DNA of 64,000 nt, from NCBI RefSeq assembly GCF_023169885.1, contig NZ_AP025516.1:4133501-4197500 (forward strand). Reading direction: 5' to 3'. This DNA comes from Desulfofustis limnaeus (GTDB lineage Bacteria; Desulfobacterota; Desulfobulbia; Desulfobulbales; Desulfocapsaceae). The notes below the pieces were generated by a model. It made no database searches, had not been told where the DNA came from, and saw only the letters and a program-made list of their open reading frames with translations. The position numbers were made by a program, and so were the translations under genes. Position 1 is the stretch's first letter, and each line of letters begins with the position of its first letter. Positions 31,367-50,098 of this stretch are shown piece after piece.

Positions 31367-34288
31367 TTACAAATCGCTGATCACATCGAAAAGTGCGTCG
31401 TCGGCGGTGATCTTTTCGCGATTGCCAATGGCCGAGCGATAGCTGTTGTCCAGCATGGCCTGGAAGACATCGGCGAATGATCGCAGCTGGTGTGCGGTGG
31501 TGGCGGTTATCTCCCTGAGCCGTTGCTGTTTTTCTGTGACGGTGATGCCGCTCAGGTATTCGTTCCGGGCTGTCGCCCCCCGGGCAGCGGCGCTCTGATG
31601 CGGGTCGAAGGAACCGTAGGTGCCGATGATCAACTGGTCCAGTGCGTGCGGAGAGAGGTCGATGCCGGCAATGACCGACGGTATCCTCTCAAAGGCCTGG
31701 AAGGTCTTGCGGACCTGCGGATCGCGATAGCTGATCAGGGCGATGTTGCCGGTTACGAAGTTGAACTGGGAAAAGCAGCCGTAAGCGCCACCCATCTGTC
31801 TGACCGTGTTCCAGAGGTAGTCGCGGGTCAGATAGGTTTTCAGCACTTCAAACGCACCGGTGTACCATTCCTGCTTCGGAAACAAGACACCGCCCTGCAC
31901 GTTGAAGACAACTTCTGCAGCTGTGATGAACGCTTCGTGACGGGGAAAAGCCGGTGCATCGAGCACCGGTTCAACGGTCCGACGGCCAGATGAAAGAGCC
32001 TCCACCAAACGGCTGCCGATGGTGCTGAACTGTGTGATCTCCTGTTCTTCCCCGGTCATCGACAGTACCACATTGCCTCGGTTGAAAAGAATCCTGGCCA
32101 TGGTCTGCAGGTCTTCCACCAGTCGTTCTTGCCGTTCTCCATGATTTTTTGCGAACTCACGAAGCTTCCGATAGGCAGTAATACCGTTGATCTGTTCCTG
32201 ATATCTGCCGGCAACACTCAAGCGGGAGAAGACACGGGTCGAAGGAAGATTGTAGCCTTCGCTTTGCGCGGCATGTTCTGCCCAGGCGTATTCCCGTCGG
32301 ACGATTTCGCGAATCCGGTTGCGGTCTTGGAAAGAAAGAGACGAGAGCAGATGCGCTATCAGGTCGATAGCCTGTTGGAGGTATTCCGGGAGGACTTTGA
32401 GGCTGAGCCAGAGGATGCATCTGACCCGGTCCGGATCGGTATACTGGGAATAGGTGTTCAGCGAGTGGGTGAGTCCGCCGGTGCAGGTGGCTACCTGTTT
32501 GGCAAATTCACTAAAAGAAAGCTTTTCCGTGCCGATCTCGGTGACAATGGCGCCGAACAGGTCGAGCAGCGGCAGAAACCGGTGCGGGAGGCAGCCGAGA
32601 TCGAAGCCGATGTCCAGGTAGGTGATATGGTTGGTCGGCAGGTCGCTGATCAGAGTCTCCACATCGAACAGCCTGCTCGCTTCAACATGATGAAAATCGA
32701 TGGCTGCAGGAAGGTCGGCCAGTTTGAGCTGAGGCAGGAGCTTGAGCAACTCCGGGTCATTCGGCGCCTGTTGTTGGGCCATGAGTTCCCCAGTCCGGGC
32801 AATGAGCCGTTCCTGCTGAGCGTCACTCAAGGTCTGGGCATAGCCGTCGAGCCGCTGCTGTTCCTGGCGGAGGGTCTCTTGCAGTTTCTCCGGGTCCGGT
32901 TCCAAGGTGACGGTCACGGTTGCCGGATTGTCGAGCAGCGATTCGCTGATCAGGTCTTCGAGATATCGTCCTGATAGAGATTTTTCCCGGATGGTGGACA
33001 ACAGTTCTTCGGTCTTCAGTGCTGCAAACGGGTCAAGGCCATAACGAAAGGCGGCCAGGGTCTTATTGAGCAGATCCAATCCCCGTTGTGCTTTACTGGC
33101 GTCTTCCCGGACGTTGAATTCGTACTTGTTCAACTCCGAGATCACCAAGTCACGGTCAAGACCTCTTTGGACCATCTCGGCAAGGGTGTCCCGGTAGAGA
33201 CGATCGAAATGGTCTCGGTGCTCGGTTTCGCTGCCGATCAAATAGGTGATCATGATCGTGTGCGGGCAGGAGGAAGAGAGATAAAATCCACCGAAATCGT
33301 TGCAAATACCGCTGGAAACGATGCGGTTCTTCAGGGGCGATCCGTCTGAGTTGTACAAGATGTTGGCAACGATCTGAAAAGCGGCGTTGCGCTCGCGGTC
33401 GCTGGCTGTTGCGACGCGCGTACCAACTGCGTGGTAGGTCCGTTCGGCAATACTTCCCGACTCGACGCCATACCGATCCACGATTTGGCGTGGTTTGACG
33501 ATGGGCGTGCCGAGTTCCGCCCTGATTCTTGGGGAACGTGCTGGGAAGTGTGAGAGAAAACGGTGCTGCAGAAACTCCAGCTCTTCCGCCAGCGGAGCAT
33601 CGCCATAGACAAAGAAAGTGGCGTTGCTTGGATGATAATGTCTGGTATGAAAGCGGCAGAAGCTCTCGTAGCTCAGATCCGGTATGCAACGCGGGTCGCC
33701 GCCCGATTCGTGGGCGTACGTGGAGCCGGGAAGCAAGCCGCTGAAAATATGGTGGAACAAGAGGCGGATCGGGTCCGAGAAGGCGCCCTTCATCTCATTG
33801 AAGACCACTCCCTGGAATTGCAGTGGTGCTGCATGCGATTCCTGGTGGTAATGCCACCCCTCCTGTTCGAATGTTTCTTTGAGGAGGAGCGGATTGAAGA
33901 CGACGTCACAATAGACATCCATGAGGTTGAAATATTCTTTCTGGTTCCTGGTGGCGAATGGATAATAGGTGATGTCGGAGCCGGTCATGGCGTTGAGGAA
34001 GGTCATCAACCCACCCTTGTTCACTTCCCCGAAGACATCCTTGACCGGATATTTTTTGGAGCCCATCAGTACCGAGTGTTCCAGGATATGGGCAACCCCG
34101 GTGGAATCGGTAGGGATGGTGTTGAAGGCGACGGCGAAAGTCTTGTTGCTGTCATCGTTTTTGATCGCCAGAAGCGGGCAGCCCGTTGCCTGATGTTCGA
34201 AGAGGAGGACTTCGGCGGAGAGTTCCTCAATCCATTCCTGTCGCTGCAAAAGAAAACCTGTTGTCGAACCGCCTGCCGAGTTGCTCAT
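31367..34288 (-). CDS. M16C-family metallopeptidase (presequence-protease type)
   Basis: This 973-residue zinc peptidase has the inverted motif HILEH at residues 67-71 and the third ligand Glu165 in NEMKGAFSDP. It has four M16 modules with a central linker, as in PreP/insulinase-associated M16C enzymes, and the length matches. The C-terminal half contains the binding Arg/Tyr segment TYGSFDPHQSAAARGATARNEYLSG. No signal peptide is present, so it should degrade peptides in the cytoplasm. It is separated by 33 bases from dtd, which lies upstream in the same direction. Confidence 0.92.
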   Translation of the reverse strand: MSNSAGGSTTGFLLQRQEWIEELSAEVLLFEHQATGCPLLAIKNDDSNKTFAVAFNTIPTDSTGVAHILEHSVLMGSKKYPVKDVFGEVNKGGLMTFLNAMTGSDITYYPFATRNQKEYFNLMDVYCDVVFNPLLLKETFEQEGWHYHQESHAAPLQFQGVVFNEMKGAFSDPIRLLFHHIFSGLLPGSTYAHESGGDPRCIPDLSYESFCRFHTRHYHPSNATFFVYGDAPLAEELEFLQHRFLSHFPARSPRIRAELGTPIVKPRQIVDRYGVESGSIAERTYHAVGTRVATASDRERNAAFQIVANILYNSDGSPLKNRIVSSGICNDFGGFYLSSSCPHTIMITYLIGSETEHRDHFDRLYRDTLAEMVQRGLDRDLVISELNKYEFNVREDASKAQRGLDLLNKTLAAFRYGLDPFAALKTEELLSTIREKSLSGRYLEDLISESLLDNPATVTVTLEPDPEKLQETLRQEQQRLDGYAQTLSDAQQERLIARTGELMAQQQAPNDPELLKLLPQLKLADLPAAIDFHHVEASRLFDVETLISDLPTNHITYLDIGFDLGCLPHRFLPLLDLFGAIVTEIGTEKLSFSEFAKQVATCTGGLTHSLNTYSQYTDPDRVRCILWLSLKVLPEYLQQAIDLIAHLLSSLSFQDRNRIREIVRREYAWAEHAAQSEGYNLPSTRVFSRLSVAGRYQEQINGITAYRKLREFAKNHGERQERLVEDLQTMARILFNRGNVVLSMTGEEQEITQFSTIGSRLVEALSSGRRTVEPVLDAPAFPRHEAFITAAEVVFNVQGGVLFPKQEWYTGAFEVLKTYLTRDYLWNTVRQMGGAYGCFSQFNFVTGNIALISYRDPQVRKTFQAFERIPSVIAGIDLSPHALDQLIIGTYGSFDPHQSAAARGATARNEYLSGITVTEKQQRLREITATTAHQLRSFADVFQAMLDNSYRSAIGNREKITADDALFDVISDL

Positions 34289-36213: not shown

Positions 36214-37548
36214 ATGCGGGAAAGTCAAACGACGGTCCTTGCTCTTCTGAGAGCGGGGAATACGTATCACGATAGTACCCTTCGAATCGTCTGGGGCGAG
36301 CGCGAAGGGGTTTTGCATCTACGTGACGGGGTTATCGTCGCTGCTGAAGCCGAGCCGCTCAGCGGTAACGGCGCTGCCATGGAAATAGCCCGATGGCAGG
36401 GGGCAATGATAACCGAGATCGATGCTGAACCGGTCATCCGCAAAAACGTCACGTACTCCCTCCAAGATATCCAGGATCTGTTCGATCGGTTTGTGATCAA
36501 GGGAGCTTCTGCCTCCAGTTTTGACGATCTTGAGGCTCTCGACCAAGCGGTCCTGCTCATTCACCAGTTCAAATACCCTGAGGCGGGGAGGCTCCTGGCG
36601 CAGTTGTTGAAACACAACCGCTTCAACTATCTGGGCTGGCTCTGGTATTCACGTCTGCTGAAGACCTTTGATTCGATAAAAAAAGCGTTGGCCGAGGCGC
36701 AAAAATGGGGTGACCACGATTCGACCGTCTGGATCGAGGTGAAAAAAACCGGTCTTGGTATGGCCAGCTGTAGCACTGGTGAAATCAAACGGTGCCTGTT
36801 TTGCTGGACGCCGATTGATGCCGACACTAGCCGGTGCGGTTATTGCCGGGCGGTGCAAGCCTTCGGCAAGGAGAAGCCGGCGCTGGATCTGAAAAAGAGC
36901 GAGGTGATCACCGGCATCAATCGTTACATCAACGCCTTCAAGGAGGATAGGCAAAACGGCAGAATCGGCTATGTGCTGGCTGTGGGCTTCTTCAACCTGA
37001 AACAATATGAAAAAGCCGCCAAATATCTGAAGTGGATAGCCTCATTGGCTCCCGATAAACCGTTGTATAGCCGTTCGCTGCAGTTTCTCATCCCCTTCGT
37101 GATGGATAATCGTCAGCAGGAAGAACAGCCTCGACCTTCTCGTCGTATTGCCGAAGTAAAGCCAAACAGACCTGCGGATGGTAGCGGTCCGCCGATTATT
37201 TTGGTGGTCGAAGATAGCCCCACGGCGCGTAAGGTCATCAGTGTCGTTTTAAAAAGGGAGGGGTTCGGTGTTGTCGAGGCTGGTTCCGGGGAGGACGCTC
37301 TCGCGGTTGTCAAGACGCTCAACCCCGGGTTGATTCTGCTCGATGTGATGTTGCCGGACACCACCGGGTTCGATTTGTTACCACGGTTGCGTGATTTCGA
37401 TCAACTGGCTGAGACTCCGGTGATCATGTTGACCGGGAGGAAGAATTCGACGGATAAACTCAAAGGGCTGATGGCCGGTTCAACCGAATACCTGACCAAA
37501 CCGTTTGATCCCCAGAAATTGACCTCCATTATTAGGAAATATCTTTGA
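36214..37548 (+). CDS. DUF4388-like/TPR/zinc-ribbon response regulator
   Basis: This 444-residue protein begins the chemosensory operon. Residues about 1-95 resemble DUF4388/PATAN (LRIVWGEREGVLHLRDGVIVAAEAEPLSG). Residues about 105-160 are helical and TPR-like. A zinc ribbon CLFCWTPIDADTSRCGYC follows, then another TPR-like pair (GYVLAVGFFNLKQYEKAAKYLKWIASLAPD). Residues about 325-444 form a receiver domain with Asp in LILLDVMLPDTTGFDL and Lys in YLTKPFDP. It is probably a phosphorylation output of the CheA encoded downstream. The start codon is within the best-scoring frame but lacks a strong ribosome binding site. Confidence 0.82.
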   Translation: MRESQTTVLALLRAGNTYHDSTLRIVWGEREGVLHLRDGVIVAAEAEPLSGNGAAMEIARWQGAMITEIDAEPVIRKNVTYSLQDIQDLFDRFVIKGASASSFDDLEALDQAVLLIHQFKYPEAGRLLAQLLKHNRFNYLGWLWYSRLLKTFDSIKKALAEAQKWGDHDSTVWIEVKKTGLGMASCSTGEIKRCLFCWTPIDADTSRCGYCRAVQAFGKEKPALDLKKSEVITGINRYINAFKEDRQNGRIGYVLAVGFFNLKQYEKAAKYLKWIASLAPDKPLYSRSLQFLIPFVMDNRQQEEQPRPSRRIAEVKPNRPADGSGPPIILVVEDSPTARKVISVVLKREGFGVVEAGSGEDALAVVKTLNPGLILLDVMLPDTTGFDLLPRLRDFDQLAETPVIMLTGRKNSTDKLKGLMAGSTEYLTKPFDPQKLTSIIRKYL

Positions 37549-37552
37549 AACC

Positions 37553-38140
37553 ATGACAGAAATCGCCAAGAATCCAGTAGCCCACCTAGACGTTCTCATC
37601 GATAAGATCGATCAGGCCATCAACGCTGCTGCCGACCCCCAGGCGGCGAAGCTTGGCAGTGTCCTCTTTACCGGGTTGAGGCAGGCGGCGCAGGGACGGA
37701 GTTATATTCTCGTGTCCATCGGAACGGCACGTCTGGCGATTCTTCTGGAGGATGTGGTCGAAGTCGGGGACTTGCCGATGCTCACCCGCTTACCCAATGT
37801 CCCGTCCTGGCTGCGCGGGATTGTCAACGTCCGTGGCGAGATTGTTTCTGTGGTCGATTTGCCGCGATTTCTGGAATGGCATGTCGATTCGACAGTGCAA
37901 CGCAAGAGGATGGTCATCATCCAACAGAGATCGGTAAAGACGGCACTCAGCATTGATGCTGTCCTCGGTATGCATCGGCGAACCGAGCAGACTGAGATGA
38001 TTAGCGGTAGTCCTCCCCTTCTTGGCCAGGACGGATCACTCCTGCCGTCCGCCTTAATACTAGACGGACAGCCCTATTATCTTCTGAATTGTCAGGCCTT
38101 GTTTACCAGTAAACGATTTGTCGATGTCCGGCATCTCTGA
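37553..38140 (+). CDS. cheW: CheW-type chemotaxis coupling protein
   Basis: This 195-residue protein couples chemoreceptors to CheA. An N-terminal helical extension of about 45 residues precedes the CheW domain. Motifs are YILVSIGTARLAILLEDVVEV, LTRLPNVPSWLRGIVNVRGEIVSVVDLPRFL and a C-terminal YYLLNCQALF. Typical CheW is about 160 residues. It follows the DUF4388-REC gene by four bases. Confidence 0.92.
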   Translation: MTEIAKNPVAHLDVLIDKIDQAINAAADPQAAKLGSVLFTGLRQAAQGRSYILVSIGTARLAILLEDVVEVGDLPMLTRLPNVPSWLRGIVNVRGEIVSVVDLPRFLEWHVDSTVQRKRMVIIQQRSVKTALSIDAVLGMHRRTEQTEMISGSPPLLGQDGSLLPSALILDGQPYYLLNCQALFTSKRFVDVRHL

Positions 38141-38194
38141 TCAGAACCTTAAGCGGCGTGCTGTAAAAACCATAAAGACCGGAGAGGAAGCTTT

Positions 38195-41100
38195 ATGCCT
38201 CAAGATGGTAGAGAAACGCTGAAAAATGAGTTTATTGCCGAGGTTGCCGGCTATGTCGATCTCATTGCGGATCGACTGCGTTCTCTGCGCAACAACCCCG
38301 ATGACCGGGACCGCCTGCGCCAAATCTATCGTTTGTTCCACACCATCAAAGGTTCGGCAGCCCAACTGGAGCTAATTGAATTGAGCGCTAGCGCCAGGAT
38401 TGCTGAAGACCTCCTGGAAGCGGTTCTCTTTGCCGGGCGTTCAGTCGCCATCGACGAGATGATTTTTCTGGAAGATGTCGATGAGCGCATTGGAGCGTAT
38501 TGTAAAAATGGATCGGCCCAGTCGACGGCCGGGGCAGACTTGCTGCAGGCTGTTCTGGTTACCTATCGGGAGTTGTTTGGTCAAGACGATGATGAGCGGA
38601 CTTTCGAAGAGGATTACGAACATCTCTGCCGGGGGGGTGGAATTGTTTCGTCACCGCCCGGATACACGGTTGAAACTTTGATCGAGCAGATCTTCGACGG
38701 TGTTCGCAGGATCCAGGAGCGGTTGTCTACAGGTGCTGTGGATCGGCAGACAACCATCGAGGACCTGAGCCGCTTGCGCCGTCTGGTCTTTGCTGTCGAA
38801 GCGCGGGCCGAGGCTGACGGGGAAGATGTCCCGGCCCCGTTTACCGTGGCCCTGGTTTCCTTCATTGATTGGCTATCGTCGGATATTGTTTTGATTGCCG
38901 AACAGGGTGCTGACCTCCTTGCCGATTACCTCGGTTTCTTTGTCTTGCTCCTGAAGAATTCTGGTAGGATCGAACCGGCAAAGACCGCTCGGGTGATCGA
39001 GTCAATGGCGCAGGTCCGTAAAATTGCAGAAATGATGGAGCCCTCCAGGCAAACCGACGACATCACCGAGTTGCTCGACGAAACGGATTTGCTCGTTGAC
39101 GAGAGTGATCTGTTGACCGGGGATGCCTTCAGTTTTCCAGATTCTGCCGAGGAACAAGAGCTCTCCACGGACCGAGGGATTGAAGACCTTGCTGATTCGG
39201 GGGGCGGATTCGACGAAGACGAGATGGATTTGAGAGAGATCTTCGTTGCCGAGAGTGAAGCCCATCTCCAGCTGATCGGTAACGCTTTGATCTCTCTCGA
39301 CAGGATTGTCACCTCTTCGCAGGAGGTACAAGGGGAGGTGGCGGAGCGCTTGGCCGAGATGAGACGTGCCGTGCACACGCTGAAAGGTGCGGCCGCCATG
39401 ACCGGGCTTGAAGAGCTGTCCGGGCTTGCTCATCGTTGCGAAGATCTTCTTGATTCCTTCTTTATCCCGGGCCGACAGATGGCCCCGCAAGACGTCAAGG
39501 TTCTGGGTGATGCTGCCGATTTGCTGGAGTCGTTGGCTCTGCACCCGGAGCAGTTATCCGGTGATGAGACGGCTGTTCTTACCGCCCGGATCGGCAAGAT
39601 CCTCTCTACTGCCGGAACCGATCCGTCGCACGGTTCGATCGAAGCCGACACTTTGCTGTCTCAATCGGAGCAGGGTGACGCGGTTCTCGCTGCGGCGCCG
39701 CTTCTGCTTGAAGCAGACGTCCCGACAGAGCAGGACAAACGACCTGAACCACATCTAGGCGCGGAGATGCCTGATCGGCACGTTGTTCCCGACCACCATC
39801 CGGTTGCCGACAGTGCCCACATCCGGGTACGCCTCGACAACCTGGACGAACTGGTGGGGCTGGAGAACGAGTTGGTCGTTTTACGCAGCGCCATGGATCA
39901 GCGGCTGACCGAGCTGTCCCGGGCAATCGGTGAACTTGATTTCGCCGGTGACAAGCTCAAAACCATTTCCCATGAGTTGGAAAGCGGCTTTGAAGTTGAA
40001 TCGCTGCTCGGTTTTGGTCGTGGAGTCCAGGCAGTGGCGGCTGGAGGCTCGAAACGAGGAGGGGCGGCGGATTTTGCCGAGTTCGACCCGATTGAGCTGG
40101 ATCGATACACGCGGCTACACTTGATTATACGAAGTCTTAACGAACTGACAGTCGATGTGGGTTCGATCTATCACGGTCTTTCCGGACTCGTTCATGAGAT
40201 GCGTGGTCATGTTGCCAATCAGCAACTGGTGATGCGGGTCATGCAGGACAAACTGACGAGGGTCAGAATGACGCCGTTGTCCGCCGTCAGCCGGGCGCTT
40301 TTTCGAACGGTACGAACCAGTGCGGCGGAGTTGGGCAAACAGGTGCGTCTGGTCATCGAGGGTGAGGATGTGTTTCTCGATCGGTTCATCTGGAACAAAG
40401 TGACCGACCCGATCATGCACATGTTGCGCAATGCCGTTGATCACGGCATAGAGCACGAAGCGGAACGCAAGGCTGCCGGCAAGCCTGTGCAGGGCATTAT
40501 TCGGTTGACCGCGGTGCAGCGGGGCAGCCATGTCGTGCTGGAAATTGCCGATGACGGCAGAGGGATCGATACCGAGGTAATCAGGCGCAAGCTGGTTGCT
40601 CGCGGAAGTGCCGAGCCGGATGCTGAATTCTCTGCGGTGGAGTTGCTCGATCACCTCTTCCTGCCAGGATTCAGTACCCGTGATACGGTAAGCCGTCTGT
40701 CGGGAAGAGGTGTTGGACTCGATGTGGTTCGCCAGAATCTGAAGGAACTGAGGGGATCGGTCAGGGTGCAGTCCAGCACCGGGGTGGGTACGACTTTTGT
40801 GTTGCGCATTCCGGTGTCACTCTCCATAAACAGGGCCGCGATCGTTTTGGTCGGTACCGAGAAGTATGCCGTTCCCCTACAGGACATTCTGGAGATTCGT
40901 CGGCTGCCGGCCACCGCGCTGGTCGTGGGAGACACTCTGCAGGCGGAGATTGGCGAGGAACGGGTCCCTTTCAAGGATCTGGCTTCTCTTTTCGGGCTCA
41001 GGGAGGGGTTTCCCGAAACCTTTGTGGGAGAAAAAGAAATCCCGGTATTGCTGGTTGAAGCAGAGCATGGCCGGGTTGCCTTGGCCATTGACGGCATCGT

Positions 41101-41659
41101 CGAGCAGCAGGAAATCATCGTCAAGGGTCTCGGGTCGCATTTGCAGCATATCGAGGGGATCGGTGGGGTGACCATCATGGGAGATGGTTCGCTGATACCC
41201 ATCCTTAACATAAGTGAACTGGCGGCGCCGGAGAGGCGAGCGGCTGTGGAGTCGATGGCGGCGGAGACAGGACCGGACGAGACTCCTTTTACCGTCATGG
41301 TGGTCGACGATTCCGTCAGTGTCCGGCAGAGTGTGGCTCGACTGATCAAACAGAATGGTTGGGTGCCGATTCTTGCGACGGACGGGGTGGATGCCGTGGA
41401 GAAGATCGAAAAGGCCGCGCCCGACACTGTCATCCTGGACATTGAGATGCCGCGTATGAACGGATTCGAGTTTCTGGGGATTATACGCAGCCAGGAGCGA
41501 TACCGACGAATCCCAGTTATCATGCTGACCTCACGTTATTCGGAAAAGCATCAGAAAAAGGCGGAAGAACTCGGGGCAGACCATTATGTGATCAAACCGT
41601 ACAAAGAAGAACAGTTCGTCGCTGTTCTGCAGCGTCTGGCCGCAGAGACGAAGTCGTGA
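38195..41659 (+). CDS. cheA: Hybrid CheA histidine kinase with two Hpt domains and receiver
   Basis: This is a 1154-residue cytoplasmic kinase. Phosphotransfer domains: Hpt1 with His49 in FHTIKGSAAQ and Hpt2 with His394 in VHTLKGAAAM. Between and after them are long acidic linkers. The dimerisation region is near residues 545-690, and the ATPase near 690-870 shows MHMLRNAVDHGIEH, VVLEIADDGRGID and SGRGVGLDVVRQNL. A CheW-like domain spans about 875-1010, and a C-terminal receiver about 1035-1154 has Asp in TVILDIEMPRMNGFEF. Multiple Hpt domains plus a fused receiver are typical of type IV pilus (ChpA-like) systems. No cheB or cheR is in the cluster. Confidence 0.95.
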   Translation: MPQDGRETLKNEFIAEVAGYVDLIADRLRSLRNNPDDRDRLRQIYRLFHTIKGSAAQLELIELSASARIAEDLLEAVLFAGRSVAIDEMIFLEDVDERIGAYCKNGSAQSTAGADLLQAVLVTYRELFGQDDDERTFEEDYEHLCRGGGIVSSPPGYTVETLIEQIFDGVRRIQERLSTGAVDRQTTIEDLSRLRRLVFAVEARAEADGEDVPAPFTVALVSFIDWLSSDIVLIAEQGADLLADYLGFFVLLLKNSGRIEPAKTARVIESMAQVRKIAEMMEPSRQTDDITELLDETDLLVDESDLLTGDAFSFPDSAEEQELSTDRGIEDLADSGGGFDEDEMDLREIFVAESEAHLQLIGNALISLDRIVTSSQEVQGEVAERLAEMRRAVHTLKGAAAMTGLEELSGLAHRCEDLLDSFFIPGRQMAPQDVKVLGDAADLLESLALHPEQLSGDETAVLTARIGKILSTAGTDPSHGSIEADTLLSQSEQGDAVLAAAPLLLEADVPTEQDKRPEPHLGAEMPDRHVVPDHHPVADSAHIRVRLDNLDELVGLENELVVLRSAMDQRLTELSRAIGELDFAGDKLKTISHELESGFEVESLLGFGRGVQAVAAGGSKRGGAADFAEFDPIELDRYTRLHLIIRSLNELTVDVGSIYHGLSGLVHEMRGHVANQQLVMRVMQDKLTRVRMTPLSAVSRALFRTVRTSAAELGKQVRLVIEGEDVFLDRFIWNKVTDPIMHMLRNAVDHGIEHEAERKAAGKPVQGIIRLTAVQRGSHVVLEIADDGRGIDTEVIRRKLVARGSAEPDAEFSAVELLDHLFLPGFSTRDTVSRLSGRGVGLDVVRQNLKELRGSVRVQSSTGVGTTFVLRIPVSLSINRAAIVLVGTEKYAVPLQDILEIRRLPATALVVGDTLQAEIGEERVPFKDLASLFGLREGFPETFVGEKEIPVLLVEAEHGRVALAIDGIVEQQEIIVKGLGSHLQHIEGIGGVTIMGDGSLIPILNISELAAPERRAAVESMAAETGPDETPFTVMVVDDSVSVRQSVARLIKQNGWVPILATDGVDAVEKIEKAAPDTVILDIEMPRMNGFEFLGIIRSQERYRRIPVIMLTSRYSEKHQKKAEELGADHYVIKPYKEEQFVAVLQRLAAETKS

Positions 41660-41681
41660 ACCAGTGGGCCGGAGGATCATC

Positions 41682-42125
41682 GTGGTGAAAACCTTCAGCG
41701 TTGTCCAGGGCGGGCCGTATCGTTTGGCTGTAGATCGGGATCACCTGGTTAAAGTCTATCCGGAACGAAACGATTCCGTCGAGATCCTGGCTGACTGGCA
41801 GGTCTTTAGAAAGGAACAGGGAGACGGTGCGGCCGATAGTGTCCTCTACGATTTGAAGGAGGTGTTTTCTCACCACCAGGAGAGGTCTGAGGGACCCGGC
41901 TGTTTGGTGATCCTGGCCGAGCGGGAGACGGTTGTCGGCATAATCGTAGAGGTGTTGGAGTCCAGCCATGAACTCACCGATGACCAGCTGCAGCCGCTAC
42001 CGCCACCGTTTCCGGAAGCGTGCCGGCGCTTTTTCCCCCGTCTTGCCATCTGTGGAAAACAGGCGGTGCCGGTGTTAACCATAGCTGTGCTGCAGGCTAT
42101 CGCCACGTCGGGGAAAAGGTCGTGA
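41682..42125 (+). CDS. Small CheW-like protein
   Basis: This protein of about 147 residues starts at GTG 41682 or 41685, just after GGAGG. The N-terminus TFSVVQGGPYRLAVDRDHLVKVYP and the middle CLVILAERETVVGIIVEVLESS fit the two halves of a short, diverged CheW domain. The central RGxxxxRG loop is missing, so it may act as an adaptor variant. It lies between cheA and another CheW-like gene, whose GTG alternative overlaps this stop. Confidence 0.62.
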   Translation: MVKTFSVVQGGPYRLAVDRDHLVKVYPERNDSVEILADWQVFRKEQGDGAADSVLYDLKEVFSHHQERSEGPGCLVILAERETVVGIIVEVLESSHELTDDQLQPLPPPFPEACRRFFPRLAICGKQAVPVLTIAVLQAIATSGKRS

Positions 42126-42157
42126 CGGTCGGACAGCGGTTGCGCCAGGGAACGGAA

Positions 42158-42646
42158 ATGATGAGCAATACACGCGAAATAGTGTTGATAAAAGCGGCCG
42201 TTCAGTCGATCCGGAAACGAGAGGTCTTCTGGATTCTCAGCAAAAGCCAGATTGAACATGTCGTGCAGGATCTTCCCCTTGTCCCGGTACCGTTTTCTCC
42301 TCGTTATCTGCGGGGCGTGGGAGCATGGCAGGGGCTTGTTTTGCCGGTGGTGAGCTTGGAGCGTTATTTTGGCTTCAAACCGGTACAGAGCAGCACGGTA
42401 AAAAGGCAAGCCATCGTCAAGACCACTACTTGTGCTGCGCCCACCACCATAACCCGACTGCTGATCGATGTAACCTACGATCTTCGCATCAGGCCGTCGA
42501 TCACCGATTGTGTTCCCGTGCGAGTAGCCAATGAGGACTTGGCGGCGCGTGGTTTACAAGGGATATACGAATGGGGAGCGGACTCCTTATTGCTGCTGCC
42601 TGACATCATGGTGGTCGCTTCGGGAGGTGCAGCGGTCGGGTCATGA
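42158..42646 (+). CDS. CheW-like coupling protein
   Basis: This protein of about 162 residues starts ATG ATG at 42158 with GGGAACGGAA upstream; GTG 42122 is an alternative. The segments FWILSKSQIEHVVQDLPLVPVPFSPRYLRGVGAWQGLVLPVVSLERYFG fit CheW around the conserved RG loop. A second strand block (ADSLLLLPDIMVVA) ends the protein. It is the third CheW-type protein in the operon and overlaps the peptidase start by four bases. Confidence 0.78.
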   Translation: MMSNTREIVLIKAAVQSIRKREVFWILSKSQIEHVVQDLPLVPVPFSPRYLRGVGAWQGLVLPVVSLERYFGFKPVQSSTVKRQAIVKTTTCAAPTTITRLLIDVTYDLRIRPSITDCVPVRVANEDLAARGLQGIYEWGADSLLLLPDIMVVASGGAAVGS

Positions 42647-43875
42647 TCACGGTCAGCGAACTGGAAAATGGTATTCGGGTAGTAACAGAGGCCCTTCCCG
42701 GCAGTCGTTCCCTCGCCGTCGGGATCATGATTCGCACCGGACCTCGGGACCAGGGGCCCGATCAGGAGGGGTTGGCGCATCTGGTCGAACACGCTCTTTT
42801 CCAGGGTACCAGCAGTCGCAGCAGCCTTGATATCGCCAGGATGATCGATACCATGGGGGGGCGGGTGAACGCCTTTACCGGGAGAGATTACACCTGTTTC
42901 AGCGGTTTGGTCATGGATGACCACCGGACCTATGTGTTCGACCTTCTCTCCGATATCCTGCTCAATTCGATCTTCCCTGAAGATAAGCTGATGAAAGAGA
43001 AACAAGTCATCATCAGCGAACAGGAAATGGCGGCTGATCTCCCCGTGGAACAGGCCCTGGCCGGCCTCAAGTCGACGATTTGGCAGAACCACCCTCTGGG
43101 TTCGAAGATCGAGGGCAGTGCCGAGTCCATATCTCGGCTCACCAGGGAAGACGTGATCTATTTTCTCCATAGCAATTACCTGCCCGATCGAGTCATCGTG
43201 GCCTGTGCCGGCAACCTGGAGCATGAGGACATCGTTGCCCAAGTGCGCGATTGCTTCTGGCGGATGACTGGATCATCGGTACCGTTGACCTATGGCTCAG
43301 CGCATTTCAACAGTGGTTTCGTGCGCCACCATCATGGCGGCAATCATGCCTATTTTGCCGTGGGTATCGAGGCGCCGGCGTATGCCTGGCCGGAGCGTTA
43401 TTGCATCCATCTGCTCAACACGGCTCTAGGTGGAGGCATGTCGTCACGATTGTACCGTACCCTGCGCGAGGAGCGGGGAGTGGTTTACGACATTCACTCG
43501 GAGTACCACGCCTATATGGACGGAGGGGCTCTGGTGATCTGCGGTTCCTGCCGGCCGGACAGGGTGTTTTCCGTGGTCGATGAGATCATCGAGATCAGTG
43601 GCTCTCTGGTCACCGCAGCGCAGCCCATGGCCGAGGAAGAGCTCTGGCAGGCCAAGTTGTATACCGTCGGGCAGTACCACATAGATTCTGAAGACCCCTA
43701 TACGCGGATGAGCAGGCTTCTCACGCAACTTTTCTATTTTTCCCGGGTCGTTGGCGTTGAGGAAATCATTGCCGGGCTGGAAGGAGCAACAACGGCTGCA
43801 ATTTCCCGGGTGAGCGGGGACTATTTTCAGAGTTTTTCGAAGAAAGTAGCGGCTTGTGTGGTTGGACCGGATTGA
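42643..43875 (+). CDS. M16B-family metallopeptidase in the chemosensory operon
   Basis: This 410-residue peptidase has the zinc motif HLVEH (residues 46-50) and the third ligand Glu126 in VIISEQEMAAD, exactly 76 residues after the second His. It starts ITVSELENGIRVVTEALPGSRSLAVGIMI, the usual family start, and has two M16 domains, so it should form a dimer or a heterodimer. No signal peptide is seen. It overlaps the preceding CheW-like gene by ATGA and is followed by the small protein and CheY-like genes, so it is an integral part of the operon. A role in this signalling system is not known. Confidence 0.92.
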   Translation: MITVSELENGIRVVTEALPGSRSLAVGIMIRTGPRDQGPDQEGLAHLVEHALFQGTSSRSSLDIARMIDTMGGRVNAFTGRDYTCFSGLVMDDHRTYVFDLLSDILLNSIFPEDKLMKEKQVIISEQEMAADLPVEQALAGLKSTIWQNHPLGSKIEGSAESISRLTREDVIYFLHSNYLPDRVIVACAGNLEHEDIVAQVRDCFWRMTGSSVPLTYGSAHFNSGFVRHHHGGNHAYFAVGIEAPAYAWPERYCIHLLNTALGGGMSSRLYRTLREERGVVYDIHSEYHAYMDGGALVICGSCRPDRVFSVVDEIIEISGSLVTAAQPMAEEELWQAKLYTVGQYHIDSEDPYTRMSRLLTQLFYFSRVVGVEEIIAGLEGATTAAISRVSGDYFQSFSKKVAACVVGPD

Positions 43876-43950
43876 TGGAGCGGCAAAGTTGCTCGAGCAT
43901 GGAGGCGGAATCGGCAGTCATGCCGAAAATCAGAAACAGGGAGGTAACGC

Positions 43951-44106
43951 ATGGGTATCGATGCATCGGTGAAGAAAAACTGGATAGAGATTCAAAGGAA
44001 ACATGATGTGCCGGTGAACGCGATCGGTGTGAAGATCAAGGAGAGCGATGCCAAGACCTTGAAGATCTGGAAGGATGAGGGCATCGATAAATTCATGAAG
44101 AAGTAG
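43951..44106 (+). CDS. 51-residue protein in the chemosensory operon
   Basis: ATG 43951 is preceded by GGGAGG at seven bases, and the frame ends TAG 44104-44106. The peptide begins MGIDASVKKNWIEIQRKHD, is strongly charged (many Lys, Asp, Glu) and ends KFMKK. It looks like two short helices with a middle PVNAIGVKIKES strand. It is 12 bases before the response regulator gene. I do not know the family. The strong ribosome binding site and tight spacing support expression. Confidence 0.7.
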   Translation: MGIDASVKKNWIEIQRKHDVPVNAIGVKIKESDAKTLKIWKDEGIDKFMKK

Positions 44107-44118
44107 GATAGAATCGGT

Positions 44119-44484
44119 ATGAGTGAAAAATTGATATTAGTGGTGGACGACAGCCCTACCGACAGGCAGATAGCCGTATCCGCCTGTCAAGCCAAAGGGT
44201 ATCGGGTGGAGTCGGCAGCTGAGGGTGAAGAGGCACTGCGCAAGGCTTTGGACCTGAAACCAGATCTCATTCTACTGGATGTGATTCTACCGCAAAAAAA
44301 CGGGTTCCAAGTTTGTCGTCAGTTGAAGAGTAGCCCGGAAACGCAGGCGATAAAGATCATCATGGTGACCAGTAAATCGCAAGACAGTGACCGGTTCTGG
44401 GGGATCAAGCAGGGTGCTGACGGATATCTGACGAAACCGTTCAGCGAGTCAGAGCTTCACGAACTGATAGCGCAAACGATCTGA
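44119..44484 (+). CDS. CheY-like single-domain response regulator
   Basis: This 121-residue receiver has the acidic pair DD at 10-11, phosphoacceptor Asp54 in LILLDVILPQKNGFQV, a Thr switch in IIMVTSKSQDSD and Lys in YLTKPFSES. It resembles PilG/PilH of pilus chemosensory systems, probably phosphorylated by the hybrid CheA. Located between the 51-residue gene and the chemoreceptor gene. Confidence 0.92.
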   Translation: MSEKLILVVDDSPTDRQIAVSACQAKGYRVESAAEGEEALRKALDLKPDLILLDVILPQKNGFQVCRQLKSSPETQAIKIIMVTSKSQDSDRFWGIKQGADGYLTKPFSESELHELIAQTI

Positions 44485-44561
44485 TCGAGGCAACCTGCTC
44501 GGAGCGATGACGAGCTTATCGACCTGCGCTGAAACCATGCAGCAGGTCCGGAGGACAGGTG

Positions 44562-46715
44562 ATGAGTGAAGACAGCAAGAGGCGCTGGGCGCAGATGAAG
44601 CCGTTGCGCTTTATTACAGAAAAGATTCGCAATAAAGTGCTGGTGATTCTCCTTGGAGCAGCACTGGGTACACTGATAGTTGCCATGGTGGCCGTAGTCT
44701 CCATCAACATTGCCCAGCGGACCATTGATGAAGTCGTTGATCGCAAGGGGGCAATAGCGACGCTTGCCAATAACGCCGAGATCCAGCTGCTGCTGGCTCG
44801 CGAGCTGGATCAGCGCTATCTGCTCAACTATCGCGCCCTCGGTTTTGCAAACGCTCGCGGCGAGTATGTCGTGAAGGTAGAGCAATACGTCCAGCAAGCC
44901 GGAGCCATCCTGGCCGAGATCCAGACGAAGGATCCGGGAAGCGAAGTTATTCAGCAAAACATCGATAATGCCCGCCAGAACCTCAATACGTATTTGTCCT
45001 CTTTCTTGACGGTTGTGGAACTTACCGAAAAAAGGGGCTACAAGGATCTCGGCTTAATTGGTGAGTTCAGCGGCGATATCGAAGATGTGGAAAAGATACT
45101 CAGCAGTGCCGGCCAGCCCGATCTTCTTGTGGCTTTGCAGCAAGTGCGCGGAAATGAGCGTAATTACCTGCTGCTCGGTGAACGGCAATTCATCAGAATG
45201 GTGACCGACGGGGTAGCCGTATTGCAGGCGCAGATCGAGCGCAGCCCCCTTGCTCCCAGCGTCAAGGACAACGCCACCATCTTGATAGACGAATATCTGA
45301 CAAAATTTGACGAAGTGGTGGCGGTGGACCGGCAGATTGCCGATGGGACGAGGACCTATCGATCGGCCGTCAACAACATCATTCCCACTTTGACCACCAT
45401 CGTGGAGGCTGTGCAAACCGATCAGGCCGCTGCCATCACGGCCATGAAGGAGCAGAATCGGATCGCGTTGATCATCGTGGTTGCCGTCTCGATCATCACC
45501 ATTCTTCTCGGTATTGCGGCTGCTTTCTTCTTCTCCCGTCGGTTGACCAAACAAATCGACAATATCATGGAGATGTTTGCCACGATCGGCATGGGAGATT
45601 TTTCCGCCCGTGCCGAGATCATCACCCATGACGAGCTGGGCGAAATGGCTGAATCGCTCAACGCCATGCTTGACAATACGTTGACGCTGATTCAAAGCCG
45701 CGAGGAGCGTGACGCGATTCAGGCGTCGATCATGCGGCTTCTCACTGAGATCAGTGACCTGGCTGACGGTGATTTGACGGCACGGGCTGAGGTCACCGAG
45801 GAGGTCACCGGGGCAATTGCCGACTCATTCAACAATATGGCCGAGCAGTTGAGCCGCGTCGTCAGGGACGTAAAATCGGCCTCGGCACTCGTCGGCAGTT
45901 CATCCAGCGATGTTGATCAGGTGACCAGAAAGCTGAGTCAGGCCAGTGAAGATCAGGCTGCCAAAATCCGTGACGCCATTACCACCATTGAAAGAATCGC
46001 CGACAATATCCGGGAAGTTGCCGCCAGTGCCGGTGAGTCGGCCCGCGTGTCCGGCAGTGCGCGCAAGAGCGCCCGCGAAGGTTCCGATGCGGTACGTAAG
46101 ACTAACCAGGCCATGGGCTCGATCAAGGAAAACATGCGCGGTACGGCACGGACCATCAAGCGGCTTGGCGAAAGCTCACAGGAAATTGGTAATATCGTTC
46201 AGATTATTAATGATATTGCCGATCGGACATCGATTTTGGCGTTGAATGCCTCGATTCAGGCGGCCATGGCCGGAGAGGCGGGCCGTGGGTTTGCCGTCGT
46301 TGCCGAGGAGGTCCAGCGCTTGGCTGAGAGGTCTGCGACATCGACCAAGCAGATTGAAACGTTAATCAGCACCATCCAGGGTGAGATCAGTGAAGCCGGA
46401 ATCAGCATGGAAAGAAGCATCCAGCATGTGGTAGACGGTACGGAGCTGGCTGATGAGGCATACGAGAAACTCGAAGAGATTGAAACGGTCTCCAATCAAT
46501 TGGCAGAACTTGTTGAAAGTATTTCCGAAGCAGCACGCAGACAGGCAGCAGAATCGGAGAACATCACCAAGCTCATGAACGAGGTTGGTAAACTGACTGG
46601 AGAGACGACTGCGGCCACTCGTGAGACGGCCTCTTCAATGGAGAAAATCACAACCACTTCCAAGCAGCTTGAAGAGTCGATCGCCGTATTTAAGATCGAA
46701 GAGGAAACTGCTTGA
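44562..46715 (+). CDS. PilJ-like methyl-accepting chemotaxis protein
   Basis: This 717-residue receptor has two membrane helices (about residues 24-47, [20 protein letters not shown], and 300-325, [22 protein letters not shown]) flanking a long helical periplasmic domain. HAMP domains follow, then a cytoplasmic signalling hairpin. The tip reads [37 protein letters not shown]; the [10 protein letters not shown] variant is characteristic of PilJ of type IV pilus systems. No C-terminal CheR-docking pentapeptide is present. GTG 44559 is an alternative start. Confidence 0.93.
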
Positions 46716-46752
46716 GCCTGAACCTAAACTAGAGCTTCCGGGAGGTTCGTTC

Positions 46753-47742
46753 ATGTTTCGCATAATTTTCCCTGTTCTGGCCTGTCTTTGTCTGCTTTTT
46801 GGCGCACCGGACTCAGGGCAGGCAGCGCCTACGATTATTCGTTTTTCCCATGTGGTCGGTGATGACACTCCAAAAGGTCAGGCGGCTTTGAAGCTGAAGA
46901 GTATCGTCGAGGAACGGATGGGGGATCGCTTCGTGGTTGAGGTGTATCCAAATTCAAGCCTCTTCGATGACGATCAGATCTTTGAAGCATTGCTTCTAGA
47001 CGACGCCCAGATGGCGGCGCCGAGCCTGTCCAAATTCACCGTCTACACCAAGAGTCTCCAGGTTTTTGATCTGCCTTTCCTCTTTCAGGACCTGACGGCG
47101 GTGGATCGCTTCCAGAAGAGTCCCGAAGGGCAAGCTTTGCTGACTTCTTTTACCGACCGAGGTTTGCTTGGCCTCGGCTATTTGCATAACGGCATGAAGC
47201 AGTTATCGGCGAACCGTAAACTCTCGGTGCCTCAGGATGCCACCGGCTTGAAATTCAGAATCCAGCCGTCGGAGGTGTTGAAAGCCCAGTTTGCCGCAAT
47301 CGGGGCCGAAGCCGTGCCGAAACCGTTTTCTCAAGTCTTTTCACTCTTGTCGACCGGAGTGCTTGATGGCCAGGAGAATACCTGGTCGAACATCTACTCG
47401 CAGAAGTTCCACACGGCGCAGACGCATATCACTGAATCAAATCACGGCCTGCTTGACTATATGGTGGTGACCTCGGTCAACTTCTGGGAAGGGCTCAGTT
47501 CCGAAGATCAGCGGGATTTGCGGGCTGCCGTGGAAGAGGCAATTGCCTTTGCGAACGATTTGGCGGGAAAAATCGAGCAGGCTGATCGTCAGAAAGTGGT
47601 GGATGCCGGTACTGCCGAGGTGGTGCAATTGTCGAGAAATGAGCGTAACCAATGGGTGGAGGCGATGCGACCGGTGTGGCAACAGTTTGAGGATGGCATT
47701 GGCAGGGATTTGATCAACAAGGCCTATGGTGCCAATCAGTGA
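46753..47742 (+). CDS. Orphan TRAP-type solute-binding protein (DctP family)
   Basis: This 329-residue periplasmic protein has a signal peptide (residues 1-24, FPVLACLCLLFGAPDSGQA) and the DctP pattern: IIRFSHVVGDDTPKGQAALKLKSIVEERMG, ENTWSNIYSQKFHT with the substrate-orienting part of the family, and a C-terminal long helix. No DctQ or DctM membrane gene is near. It is 37 bases after the chemoreceptor gene, which suggests it could present a carboxylate ligand to that receptor. That is inference. Confidence 0.9.
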   Translation: MFRIIFPVLACLCLLFGAPDSGQAAPTIIRFSHVVGDDTPKGQAALKLKSIVEERMGDRFVVEVYPNSSLFDDDQIFEALLLDDAQMAAPSLSKFTVYTKSLQVFDLPFLFQDLTAVDRFQKSPEGQALLTSFTDRGLLGLGYLHNGMKQLSANRKLSVPQDATGLKFRIQPSEVLKAQFAAIGAEAVPKPFSQVFSLLSTGVLDGQENTWSNIYSQKFHTAQTHITESNHGLLDYMVVTSVNFWEGLSSEDQRDLRAAVEEAIAFANDLAGKIEQADRQKVVDAGTAEVVQLSRNERNQWVEAMRPVWQQFEDGIGRDLINKAYGANQ

Positions 47743-47947: not shown

Positions 47948-48355
47948 ATGATTAATAAATTGCAGAAATTGATGGATGCCTTATCCAAGGAACTGCCGGG
48001 CGTATTAGCCGTTGCGGTGGTCACGGTCGAGGATGGTTTGTCAATCGCAGAAGTGAGCAGGCGCAAGGGGATCGAGACGGCTGCCGCGTCCGCCTATCTC
48101 GCGTCGATCGTGAAATCGAACGGAAAAGCCATCGGTTTACTGGCTGATGACGAGGTTACCGATGATATCCTGATCACCACCAGCCGCTATCATTTCATCA
48201 TCCGTCATACGCCGGACCAGCCCTTTTTCATCTTTGTCATGACCACCAAGGACGAGTGGCTGGGCAAAGCACGACTGCTGATGAAGAGATTTGAGTTGGA
48301 ATTGTCGCGGTTTTCGGCAGAACTTATCGAGCAATTTCGACAAGCTTCAGATTAG
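47948..48355 (+). CDS. Roadblock/LC7 domain protein
   Basis: This 135-residue protein has the roadblock fold pattern: LQKLMDALSKELPGVLAVAVVTVEDGLSIAEVS, a central helix AAASAYLASIVKSNGKAIGLL, and strands DDILITTSRYHFIIRHT and PFFIFVMTTKDEWLGKARLLMKRF. Members regulate small GTPases of the MglA type or serve as scaffolds. No MglA-like gene is in the window. It is convergent with the REC-DUF4388-roadblock gene. Confidence 0.85.
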   Translation: MINKLQKLMDALSKELPGVLAVAVVTVEDGLSIAEVSRRKGIETAAASAYLASIVKSNGKAIGLLADDEVTDDILITTSRYHFIIRHTPDQPFFIFVMTTKDEWLGKARLLMKRFELELSRFSAELIEQFRQASD

Positions 48356-48409
48356 AGACTGAACGAAACGATTAGCTCTTAATCGGTAGTTTCGTGGCAC
48401 GTGGCCCAG

Positions 48410-48444
48410 GAAGACCCGGAAGTGCATCGCCTTTCCGGGTTTTC
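48410..48444. terminator. Bidirectional terminator between two roadblock genes
   Basis: GAAGACCCGGAA (48410-48421) pairs with TTCCGGGTTTTC (48433-48444), 12 bp with one G-U pair and an 11-base loop. The stem itself contains a T-rich arm, and the hairpin sits between convergent genes. Confidence 0.75.
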
Positions 48445-48502
48445 CTGTTTCCGTGTCGATTGCCCGCCCCATCAGCTCTGCGGTGCCGATTAAGGAGAGG
48501 AA

Positions 48503-49846
48503 TCAGAGGTTGGCCGCCTTTTCGATAACCTTGGAATTCTTTTTAATGGTCAGGCGTATCCAGCCAAGGTTTGTGTCTTTATCGGCAACGATGACCAGAA
48601 AAGCTTCACTGCCTACCGGTGCAAACATGACCGGTCCGTCGGTGTATTCCAGCATGGTCATGTTCAGATCGCCCTGGCCAAGCTGATTACCCATTGATTC
48701 CGCGGAGCCGAAGCCGGAAGAGGCGATGGCTCCGATCATCTCAGCATCAATACCGCTGCGAGCGATACTATCGAGCAGAAAGCCGTCGCGGCCCACCAGG
48801 CAGGCCGTGTGAACACCTTCAACGTTAGTGAATTCAGCTAGTATTTTCTGGATGTCCGTCATTTCGTTTTCCTCTTCTGGGGTTAACGTGGTATCGCCGT
48901 TCGCCGCTGCCGCTGGCGACGGTGGCGGTGCTTTTTCGTGAGAAATTCGATCGGCCCCGCTCTGTTCATGGTCCGATTCAGCTTCAGGCAGATTGACTTC
49001 GGGGTGGTCCGTAGACAATTCGTCGGAAAGGAGTCCAGGGAAACTATCATCGCTCCGGTCCTGCTGGGCGTCTTCAGCGTCATCTTCCAGAGGGGCGATG
49101 ATGTCTCCGGTGTCAAGGTCTTCCAGGGTTGCAACCGGCTCGGTATCATCGTCTGACGAGTTGCGCGGAGCACTCTCGTCATTACGTAGCGCAGCTTCAA
49201 AAAGGAGTGATTCGAGGCTCTTGTTGATACTGATTATCGGTGGCTCCACCCCGCGAATGTTTTGCAATGTTCCGTCGTTAAAAGTGATGATCTTAAAAAA
49301 GGCATCTTCACCACTGAGTTGATCACACATGGCATGGACGACGGAGCCATTTTTGAAGAAAAGCATGCCTTCCTGCTCAGTAGTGGTAACCTTAAGTGCT
49401 GCGGTTGCTTGAGATAACCCATTGAATTGGATGATGTCCATCAGGTCAATGCCGTTGATCGTCCCCTGGAACCCATCGCTGGTCTTCAGGACATTTTTAA
49501 CGATGTCACGCATATCTTTGATGTCGAACGGTTTCTCGATAAAACGCAGGCTGCCGCTCATCATCGCCTCCCGCTCGTAAGCGCTGGAAGGATACGCGGT
49601 CATGATGATAACGCCGGTGTCGGGATAACGATTGTTAATTTCGATCAACAGGTCGAGACCGTTCATGCCGGGCATGTTGATGTCAGTGATGACCAAGTTG
49701 ACAGCCGTGTCACTGAGAACGGCCAATGCTTCTTCACCGGATCTGGCGGCGAGAATTTCGACATCGGACATGCCCTTGTTCAGGTTTCTCTGGAGCATCC
49801 AGAGCATATCCTCTTCATCGTCAACAACAAGTACTTTCTTGGTCAT
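48503..49846 (-). CDS. Response regulator fused to DUF4388 and roadblock domains
   Basis: This is a 447-residue cytoplasmic protein. The receiver spans residues 1-120 (KVLVVDDEEDMLWML, phosphoacceptor Asp in NLVITDINMPGMNG, FIEKPFDIKD). A DUF4388/PATAN domain covers about 130-235 (GTINGIDLMDIIQFNGLSQATAALKV). A long acidic Ser/Asp/Glu-rich linker follows (about 240-330). The C-terminal roadblock/LC7 domain covers about 335-447 (IQKILAEFTNVEGVHTACLVGRDGFLLDSI). GAGGG precedes ATG 49846. It probably links phosphorylation to a roadblock-regulated partner. It faces the single roadblock gene across a terminator. Confidence 0.88.
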   Translation of the reverse strand: MTKKVLVVDDEEDMLWMLQRNLNKGMSDVEILAARSGEEALAVLSDTAVNLVITDINMPGMNGLDLLIEINNRYPDTGVIIMTAYPSSAYEREAMMSGSLRFIEKPFDIKDMRDIVKNVLKTSDGFQGTINGIDLMDIIQFNGLSQATAALKVTTTEQEGMLFFKNGSVVHAMCDQLSGEDAFFKIITFNDGTLQNIRGVEPPIISINKSLESLLFEAALRNDESAPRNSSDDDTEPVATLEDLDTGDIIAPLEDDAEDAQQDRSDDSFPGLLSDELSTDHPEVNLPEAESDHEQSGADRISHEKAPPPSPAAAANGDTTLTPEEENEMTDIQKILAEFTNVEGVHTACLVGRDGFLLDSIARSGIDAEMIGAIASSGFGSAESMGNQLGQGDLNMTMLEYTDGPVMFAPVGSEAFLVIVADKDTNLGWIRLTIKKNSKVIEKAANL

Positions 49847-50098
49847 GGGCACCCTCATTGATTCCCTGTTCCGCATGTTGAGTGTCGCTGCACCATGCGG
49901 TTTCTCTCCACGCGCATGCCGTGTTTGCTGAAACGGTTGATCAACAAGTATTATCCAAATTACGTGCCGGTTTGCGTTCTTGGAGGAGAGAGGTGAAAAA
50001 AATGATATATCAGGGAAATAGCCGGTTTTTTGGGGGACTGCCAGGACGCTGGCTGTTCGAAATTGCGCCAGAAATTTGACCGGGTGGTCAGAATTTGG

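Follow-up and report, generated by a model that had tools for sequence, protein, structure and literature searches.

Why would a chemosensory operon encode a zinc peptidase? The question is raised by a gene cluster of Desulfofustis limnaeus, whose 4.23-Mb genome is a single contig and includes the 64-kb stretch analyzed here (the window; positions count from its first nucleotide). The plus strand of the window encodes, in this order, a response regulator with a receiver domain (REC), CheW1, a hybrid CheA, CheW2, CheW3, an M16 peptidase, a 51-residue small open reading frame (ORF) product termed sORF51, CheY, a methyl-accepting chemotaxis protein (MCP) and a DctP-family solute-binding protein. 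Peptidase and sORF51 constitute a module: the peptidase belongs to a separate M16 clade tied to operons of this kind, has an intact active site, occurs nested within the distribution of sORF51, and shows more co-variation with this protein than the other operon proteins do. We infer, with a confidence somewhat short of even, that a dedicated cytoplasmic M16B peptidase controls the small regulator sORF51 in a Pil-Chp-like array. The operon chassis is of an already known kind, Pil-Chp/Pix-like; a targeted full-text search of the open-licence literature, outside which lie most subscription papers and bioRxiv preprints, returned no paper linking chemosensory clusters with an M16 peptidase or with proteolysis.

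A peptidase with an intact active site and its 51-residue neighbor

The peptidase gene (42643..43875, plus strand) starts with an ATG that overlaps the CheW3 stop codon by four bases (ATGA), and domains, alignment, tree and structure model predict its product to be an M16B zinc peptidase with an HLVEH motif, belonging to a chemosensory-linked clade. The HxxEH motif and the downstream Glu (H46, E49, H50 and E126) are intact and invariant in 35 of 35 aligned rows, the role of each residue (zinc ligand and so forth) being assigned presumptively. The first-pass annotation, which had placed an M16B peptidase with all catalytic residues and a four-base overlap between CheW-like and CheY-like genes, is thus correct in both coordinates and motif. 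Both M16 domains (PF00675 and PF05193) were found in a ~400-residue M16 fold with an active N-terminal and an inactive C-terminal half, and the structure model (predicted local distance difference test, pLDDT, 94.6) had 3hdi as its top match in the PDB (template modelling score 0.94). Assignment to the YfmF/YfmH pair fell below the NCBIfam cut-offs (best match YfmH, 68.4 bits vs 250; YfmF, 48.4 vs 285). Neither the peptidase nor sORF51 has a signal peptide evident by eye, so both are expected in the cytoplasm, where CheA, CheW, CheY and the receptor tip are also located. On the opposite strand, 2 kb ahead of the operon, a separate 973-aa gene (31367-34288) looks by eye like one for an M16-type peptidase, and a stretch 75% identical to it is found at the edge of L044, the corresponding locus of Desulfofustis glycolicus DSM 9705.

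sORF51 (43951..44106, plus strand) is a cytoplasmic protein of 51 residues with a predicted small helical fold, as judged by conservation and modelling. Of 42 peptidase-sORF51 pairs, 35 have a spacing, from peptidase stop to sORF51 start, between -1 and 172 bases, and the other 7 one of 256 to 524; tandem sORF51 duplicates follow the peptidase in 3/53 loci (L071, L075 and L076). All copies share the same start Met and comprise 50 to 61 residues, except one cut by a contig end, and 12 residues (M1, N10, W11, Q15, P21, N23, A24, G26, I29, D33, T36 and W40) are invariant in an alignment of 61 rows, in which two loci were entered twice. sORF51 has no NCBIfam match and its best Pfam match is sub-threshold (16.6 bits vs 27). 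AlphaFold models it as a compact helical mini-protein (pLDDT 89), for which a Foldseek search of the PDB yielded no usable relative (best E 5.2). Sequence matches to WD40 proteins of the PDB (best E 0.0002) were rejected as composition, since they stem from a 14-residue stretch summed over many repeats at ~3 bits each.

Comparison of the source genome (G000) with Desulfofustis glycolicus gave a nonsynonymous divergence (dN) of 0.063 for sORF51, 0.10 for CheY, 0.19 for the peptidase and 0.33 for CheA, with synonymous divergence saturated for sORF51. None of the nine operon genes compared has a lower dN; with the downstream 135-aa gene (0.060) included as a tenth, sORF51 ranks second. Being more conserved and more widely kept, sORF51 is, judged from these alignments, a better marker of these systems than the peptidase, a partner that the first-pass annotation overlooked as such.

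The peptidase belongs to a chemosensory clade and accompanies sORF51

A first sample of 58 genomes, the source genome included, contained a 52-73% identical M16 protein in three others (G001, G017 and G029), in each case preceded by CheA and CheW and followed by the 51-aa gene, CheY and MCP; the locus of the same-genus relative G001 appears to be the same as L044. A further genome (G020) holds an M16 fragment at a contig end, adjoining CheW and CheA. The remaining same-family genomes of this sample gave no such match, and order-mates held other M16 proteins of ≤37% identity. The order CheA-CheW-M16-51aa-CheY-MCP is thus repeated in relatives, which argues that the arrangement of the operon is not due to chance.

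For a wider view, 84,980 species genomes were scanned for sORF51 with two exact peptide patterns. This yielded 53 loci from Desulfobacterota, Acidobacteriota, Chloroflexota, Planctomycetota and organisms labelled only 'uncultured bacterium', a set biased in that it is seeded by sORF51 and in that exact patterns miss diverged copies. An M16 relative lies within the fetched stretch of 41 of these loci and, in L054 (Desulfonema magnum), further along the same operon, bringing the count to 42/53. Whole-genome searches for the other 11, several of which are fragmentary metagenome-assembled genomes (MAGs), returned only M16 proteins of ≤35% identity; in nine genomes serving as positive controls the expected M16 was found in all cases (38-48%). 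Conservation of the peptidase with the cluster, which the first-pass annotation had named beforehand as a check, is therefore seen across phyla, with 11 related clusters lacking it.

In a phylogenetic tree, the 42 chemosensory-linked M16 rows, which cover four phyla and come from PilJ-like chemosensory operons, fall on one side of a single branch (support 100/99), opposite 27 other M16 rows; the latter derive from the genomes met in these searches, and the tree is accordingly not a global one of M16. Nine Pirellulaceae sequences cluster together, which argues against contamination as their probable source, and the placement of two Acidobacteriota loci (L065 and L066) among Desulfobacterota suggests horizontal transfer. 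The presence of the peptidase-sORF51 pair in the same type of cluster in four distantly related phyla points to a putative control step in chemosensing.

To remove the bias of the sORF51-seeded collection, two orders were searched with the peptidase (E≤1e-80). Together they comprised 30 genomes with the chemosensory M16 (two copies truncated at contig ends), 29 of which also have sORF51; in the sole exception the contig ends inside the operon. The order of G000 holds the peptidase in 15/257 genomes. Thirteen copies are complete (595-653 bits), whereas those of G497 (499 bits) and G569 (364 bits) are truncated by the end of a contig. The G569 copy was assigned by operon context, as its score alone would not separate it from other M16B proteins of this order (≤382 bits). 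All 15 genomes also have sORF51, 14 of them directly beside the peptidase and G497 on a different contig; with the G020 fragment added, which lies below the threshold at a contig end, the count is 15/16. In the order of Desulfoluna, 15/389 genomes have the peptidase, with 590-695 bits and a clear gap to the next match (408 bits). All 15 copies lie between CheW-like (CheW3) and CheY genes. In 12 cases sORF51 is the direct neighbor; in two (L146 and L191) it stands at the front of the operon, and in L169/L193, whose contig breaks off inside the operon, it is not visible. Around the 15 next-best M16 loci among those returned (≤408 bits), up to 1.5 kb of flanking sequence shows no che gene.

The converse relationship is looser. 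Among 24 genomes of the order of G000 with a good sORF51 (one cut by a contig end), the peptidase was found in 15 and not found in 9, some of which are incomplete MAGs. Thus, the occurrence of the peptidase is nested in that of sORF51: sORF51 can lack the peptidase, and the converse was never shown. Two further genomes without such a peptidase (G575 and G578), excluded from the 24, retain only weak, decayed traces of sORF51, at its customary position ahead of CheY (L158, 2886-2975; L159, 5311-5403). The system as a whole is rare and patchy, with sORF51 in 5/395 genomes of a phylum sample and the peptidase in 1/236 Pirellulales genomes at the same threshold, the one being the centre itself.

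These distributions bear on the idea that the peptidase is a general cytoplasmic oligopeptidase riding in the operon. Its ordinary M16B fold and active site would fit such a passenger, as would the lack of a housekeeping M16B match in the family f1 genomes of the first sample. However, several genomes carry both the chemosensory M16 and a housekeeping copy. Moreover, the peptidases of chemosensory operons from four phyla make up one clade, and their occurrence is nested in that of sORF51, without which the peptidase was never shown; for these two reasons we regard the passenger explanation as highly improbable. On this genomic evidence, the peptidase is part of the chemosensory system and not a passenger.

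Candidate relationships between peptidase and sORF51

Pairwise protein distances were correlated across the 28 loci holding all six proteins compared, with partial correlations holding CheY, MCP, CheA and CheW1 fixed. sORF51 distances correlated best with those of the peptidase (r 0.80), and the partial correlation of the two was 0.46 (permutation p 0.0002, the smallest value that the test can return), as compared to 0.25 for MCP (p 0.0012), -0.12 for CheY, -0.01 for CheA and 0.02 for CheW1. Restricting the analysis to the 18 Desulfobacterota loci gave a partial correlation of 0.56 for sORF51 and the peptidase and ≤0.04 for the others.

In the mechanism that we propose, the periplasmic binding protein would feed the PilJ-like receptor, which three CheW-type couplers would link to the hybrid CheA, and CheY and the REC protein would relay the output, with type IV pili as its most likely target. 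sORF51 would act as a small regulator by binding to some part of the signalling core (CheW, CheA, CheY or the receptor). The peptidase would clip or remove sORF51, or be held in check by it. In this way, proteolysis would determine how much active sORF51 is present, and thereby adjust array gain, beside methylation and not in its place. That this amounts to a built-in proteolytic loop, with the peptidase tuning the array by turning over sORF51 or by being gated by it, and thus to a methylation-independent layer of adaptation in several phyla, is a more tentative proposition, which we put at roughly one chance in three.

Several points weigh against this mechanism. Interaction and cleavage of sORF51 by the peptidase are steps that we infer. 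M16B enzymes act on short or unfolded chains, and sORF51, with its predicted fold, would not be an ideal substrate. Before the other proteins are held fixed, peptidase distances correlate better with CheY (0.87) than with sORF51 (0.80); gene linkage alone could raise distance correlations, and distances from 51 residues are noisy. Nor is CheY a clean control for linkage, given that the CheY used was the best match of each locus and not necessarily the neighbor. The mean identity of sORF51 is also nearly the same in loci lacking the peptidase (0.65, 10 rows) and in loci that have it (0.69, 48 rows; L056, L082 and L095 were dropped, and L005/L043 and L006/L047 are each the same place counted twice among the 48), which argues that the main constraint on sORF51 is something other than the peptidase. 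Individual columns showed only small shifts without the peptidase (E13, K16, K28 and D46 lower), in rows too few to read. Finally, type IV pili as the most likely output are deduced from the receptor tip and from PilB and PilT encoded elsewhere in the genome.

Close behind stands the explanation that sORF51 serves the peptidase as an adaptor or inhibitor subunit, the real substrate lying elsewhere in the pathway (the receptor, a CheW-like protein, the CheA linker or a pilus protein). The observation that the peptidase was in no case shown to occur without sORF51, the compact predicted fold of the latter and the co-variation of the two distances would all be expected of such a subunit. Yet, sORF51 is kept, invariant residues included, where no such peptidase was found, implying another role in those genomes; we consider the subunit explanation possible, if rather doubtful. 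A different relationship is that proposed for PqqF-type enzymes, which would process PqqA, with a small gene beside the M16 gene. By analogy, sORF51 could be a precursor from which cleavage by the peptidase yields a peptide signal or a cofactor, in keeping with the small gene adjoining the M16 gene and a weak match to the PqqF model that, at 22.3 bits vs a cut-off of 320, lies far below membership. However, sORF51 is conserved over its whole length and not in a core peptide, no modifying enzyme or exporter is found among the operon genes of the window, and, decisively for its low rank, sORF51 persists without the peptidase. A precursor role thus appears quite unlikely, and control of sORF51 by the peptidase remains the reading that we favor.

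Relation to receptor methylation

Chemosensory arrays are thought to adapt mainly via receptor methylation. The first-pass annotation had noted that the operon lacks CheR and CheB and had proposed proteolysis in place of methylation. Indeed, neither enzyme (the equivalents of PilK and ChpB), and hence no cognate methylation enzyme, was found in the 64-kb window. In the Desulfobacterota operons, tblastn searches of the fetched stretches with the genome's own CheR and CheB detected no CheR. CheB matches were confined to the REC part (up to query residue 204), the one exception being the peptidase-less locus L058, with a weak, partial match to the catalytic part (26%, E 1.5e-6). The strict methylation motif, in the form given in PMC12632253, has no match in the operon receptor. 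The genome encodes eight other MCPs: five carry at least one such motif in the fetched stretch, two carry none and L034 has none around its tip. Among 45 receptor ORFs from related loci, some of them cut by contig ends, the motif is absent from 32 and present in 13; this count is not proof for or against methylation, and it supersedes an initial reading (6/21 receptors with a motif) for which the pattern had been too narrow.

Replacement of CheR/CheB methylation by M16 proteolysis would fit the lack of both enzymes in the operon and the receptors without the strict motif. It fits poorly with the 13 related receptors that do have it, with the 11/53 sORF51 loci that lack the peptidase, and with methylation enzymes elsewhere in this very genome, where two CheR and three CheB matches correspond to a CheA-CheW-CheB-CheR cluster, a CheB-CheR fusion and a third CheB. 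Moreover, operons of other phyla that hold both M16 and sORF51 include CheR between MCP and CheA in 6/53 loci (L061, L066, L069, L070, L071 and L075) or CheB after CheA in 2/53 (L063 and L092), both counts being lower bounds as many loci are incomplete. Since the module coexists with CheR and CheB in these operons, the replacement idea is not generally valid. What stands of the original proposal is a receptor without the strict motif, as that source gives it, and Desulfobacterota operons devoid of CheR and, apart from the weak L058 match, of the CheB catalytic part; for the proposal as such, we see little probability left. Some pilus-type systems, this operon included, nonetheless have no methylation enzymes in the operon, and there the conserved module of peptidase and mini-protein is a concrete candidate for a second mechanism of adaptation. 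sORF51 itself represents an unnamed protein family (none of the Pfam or NCBIfam models scores above its cut-off) and is a marker of such systems in several phyla.

Input, output and remaining genes

The other genes of the operon, all on the plus strand, provide the signalling chassis. The first (36214..37548) encodes a response regulator whose N-terminal region has weak TPR similarity and whose C-terminal part is REC. Its first-pass label, DUF4388-REC, is not borne out: no DUF4388 match was obtained in Pfam even at E≤10, and this domain instead occurs in the product of the minus-strand gene 48503-49873 (REC-DUF4388-Roadblock). CheW1 (37553..38140; PF01584, 79 bits) is followed by the hybrid CheA (38195..41659) with two Hpt stretches, HATPase_c, CheW and REC domains; by CheW2 (41664..42125), the degenerate CheW domain of which scores 25.9 bits vs a cut-off of 23.5 and has tblastn matches only in the genus mate (L004/L044); and by CheW3 (42122..42646), which starts at GTG 42122 or the in-frame ATG 42158. 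Downstream of sORF51 lie the CheY-like single-domain response regulator (44119..44484), the MCP (44562..46715; alternative start GTG 44559), a membrane chemoreceptor with HAMP and a PilJ-like tip, and the DctP-family (TRAP-type) solute-binding protein (46753..47742; 302 bits). These results confirm the 51-residue protein, the hybrid CheA with two Hpt domains, the three CheW-type proteins and the TRAP-type binding protein of the first-pass annotation.

The label of a PilJ-like receptor was likewise supported, as the tip reads NASIQA, vs NA(A/T)IEA in the eight other MCPs of the genome; NASIQA is what we take to be the tip of PilJ. A tip of this type is present in 40/45 related receptor ORFs and was not found in the other 5, three of which are short or partial. 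Of the pilus ATPases, PilB and PilT, the two looked for, are both encoded elsewhere in the genome (784 bits, cut-off 675.65, and 350.8 bits, cut-off 319.1, respectively).

The slot after the receptor harbors binding proteins of four Pfam families: DctP in the window, L043, L044 and L047; Peripla_BP_6 in L048 (14133-15419), L074, L079 (12583-13755) and L094; PBP_like_2 in L050 (13963-14904) and L088; and ABC_sub_bind in L055 (13478-14425) and L080. In some loci, e.g., L053 and L059, no solute-binding gene occupies it. This pattern suggests sensing through exchangeable binding proteins. After the operon (47948-51427), the 135-aa gene, the minus-strand REC-DUF4388-Roadblock gene and an NtrC-type regulator are retained beside the operon in L044; relatives of them occur in L043, arranged differently.

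Comparison with known systems

The operon peptidase shares its fold, the HxxEH motif and the Glu ligands with M16B peptidases such as Bacillus halodurans 3hdi and Thermus TTHA1264/TTHA1265, from which it differs in belonging to a separate clade tied to chemosensory operons. At the level of the pathway, a close counterpart is the Pil-Chp system of Pseudomonas aeruginosa (PilG-PilH-PilI-PilJ-PilK-ChpA-ChpB-ChpC). Both have a PilJ-like tip, a hybrid CheA with Hpt stretches and a C-terminal REC, extra CheW couplers, CheY and pilus ATPases in the genome, although ChpA presumably has more Hpt domains than the two of the operon CheA. In contrast to Pil-Chp, the operon has no PilK or ChpB and additionally encodes M16, sORF51 and a solute-binding protein. 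The cyanobacterial Pix/Tax systems (PixG-PixH-PixI-PixJ-PixL), as described in PMC5812497, consist of the same components, namely a REC protein with an N-terminal domain, CheY, CheW, MCP and CheA. Relative to these, the operon REC protein has no PATAN/DUF4388 match (E≤10), a solute-binding gene stands in place of a photoreceptor, and the M16 peptidase and sORF51 are extra.

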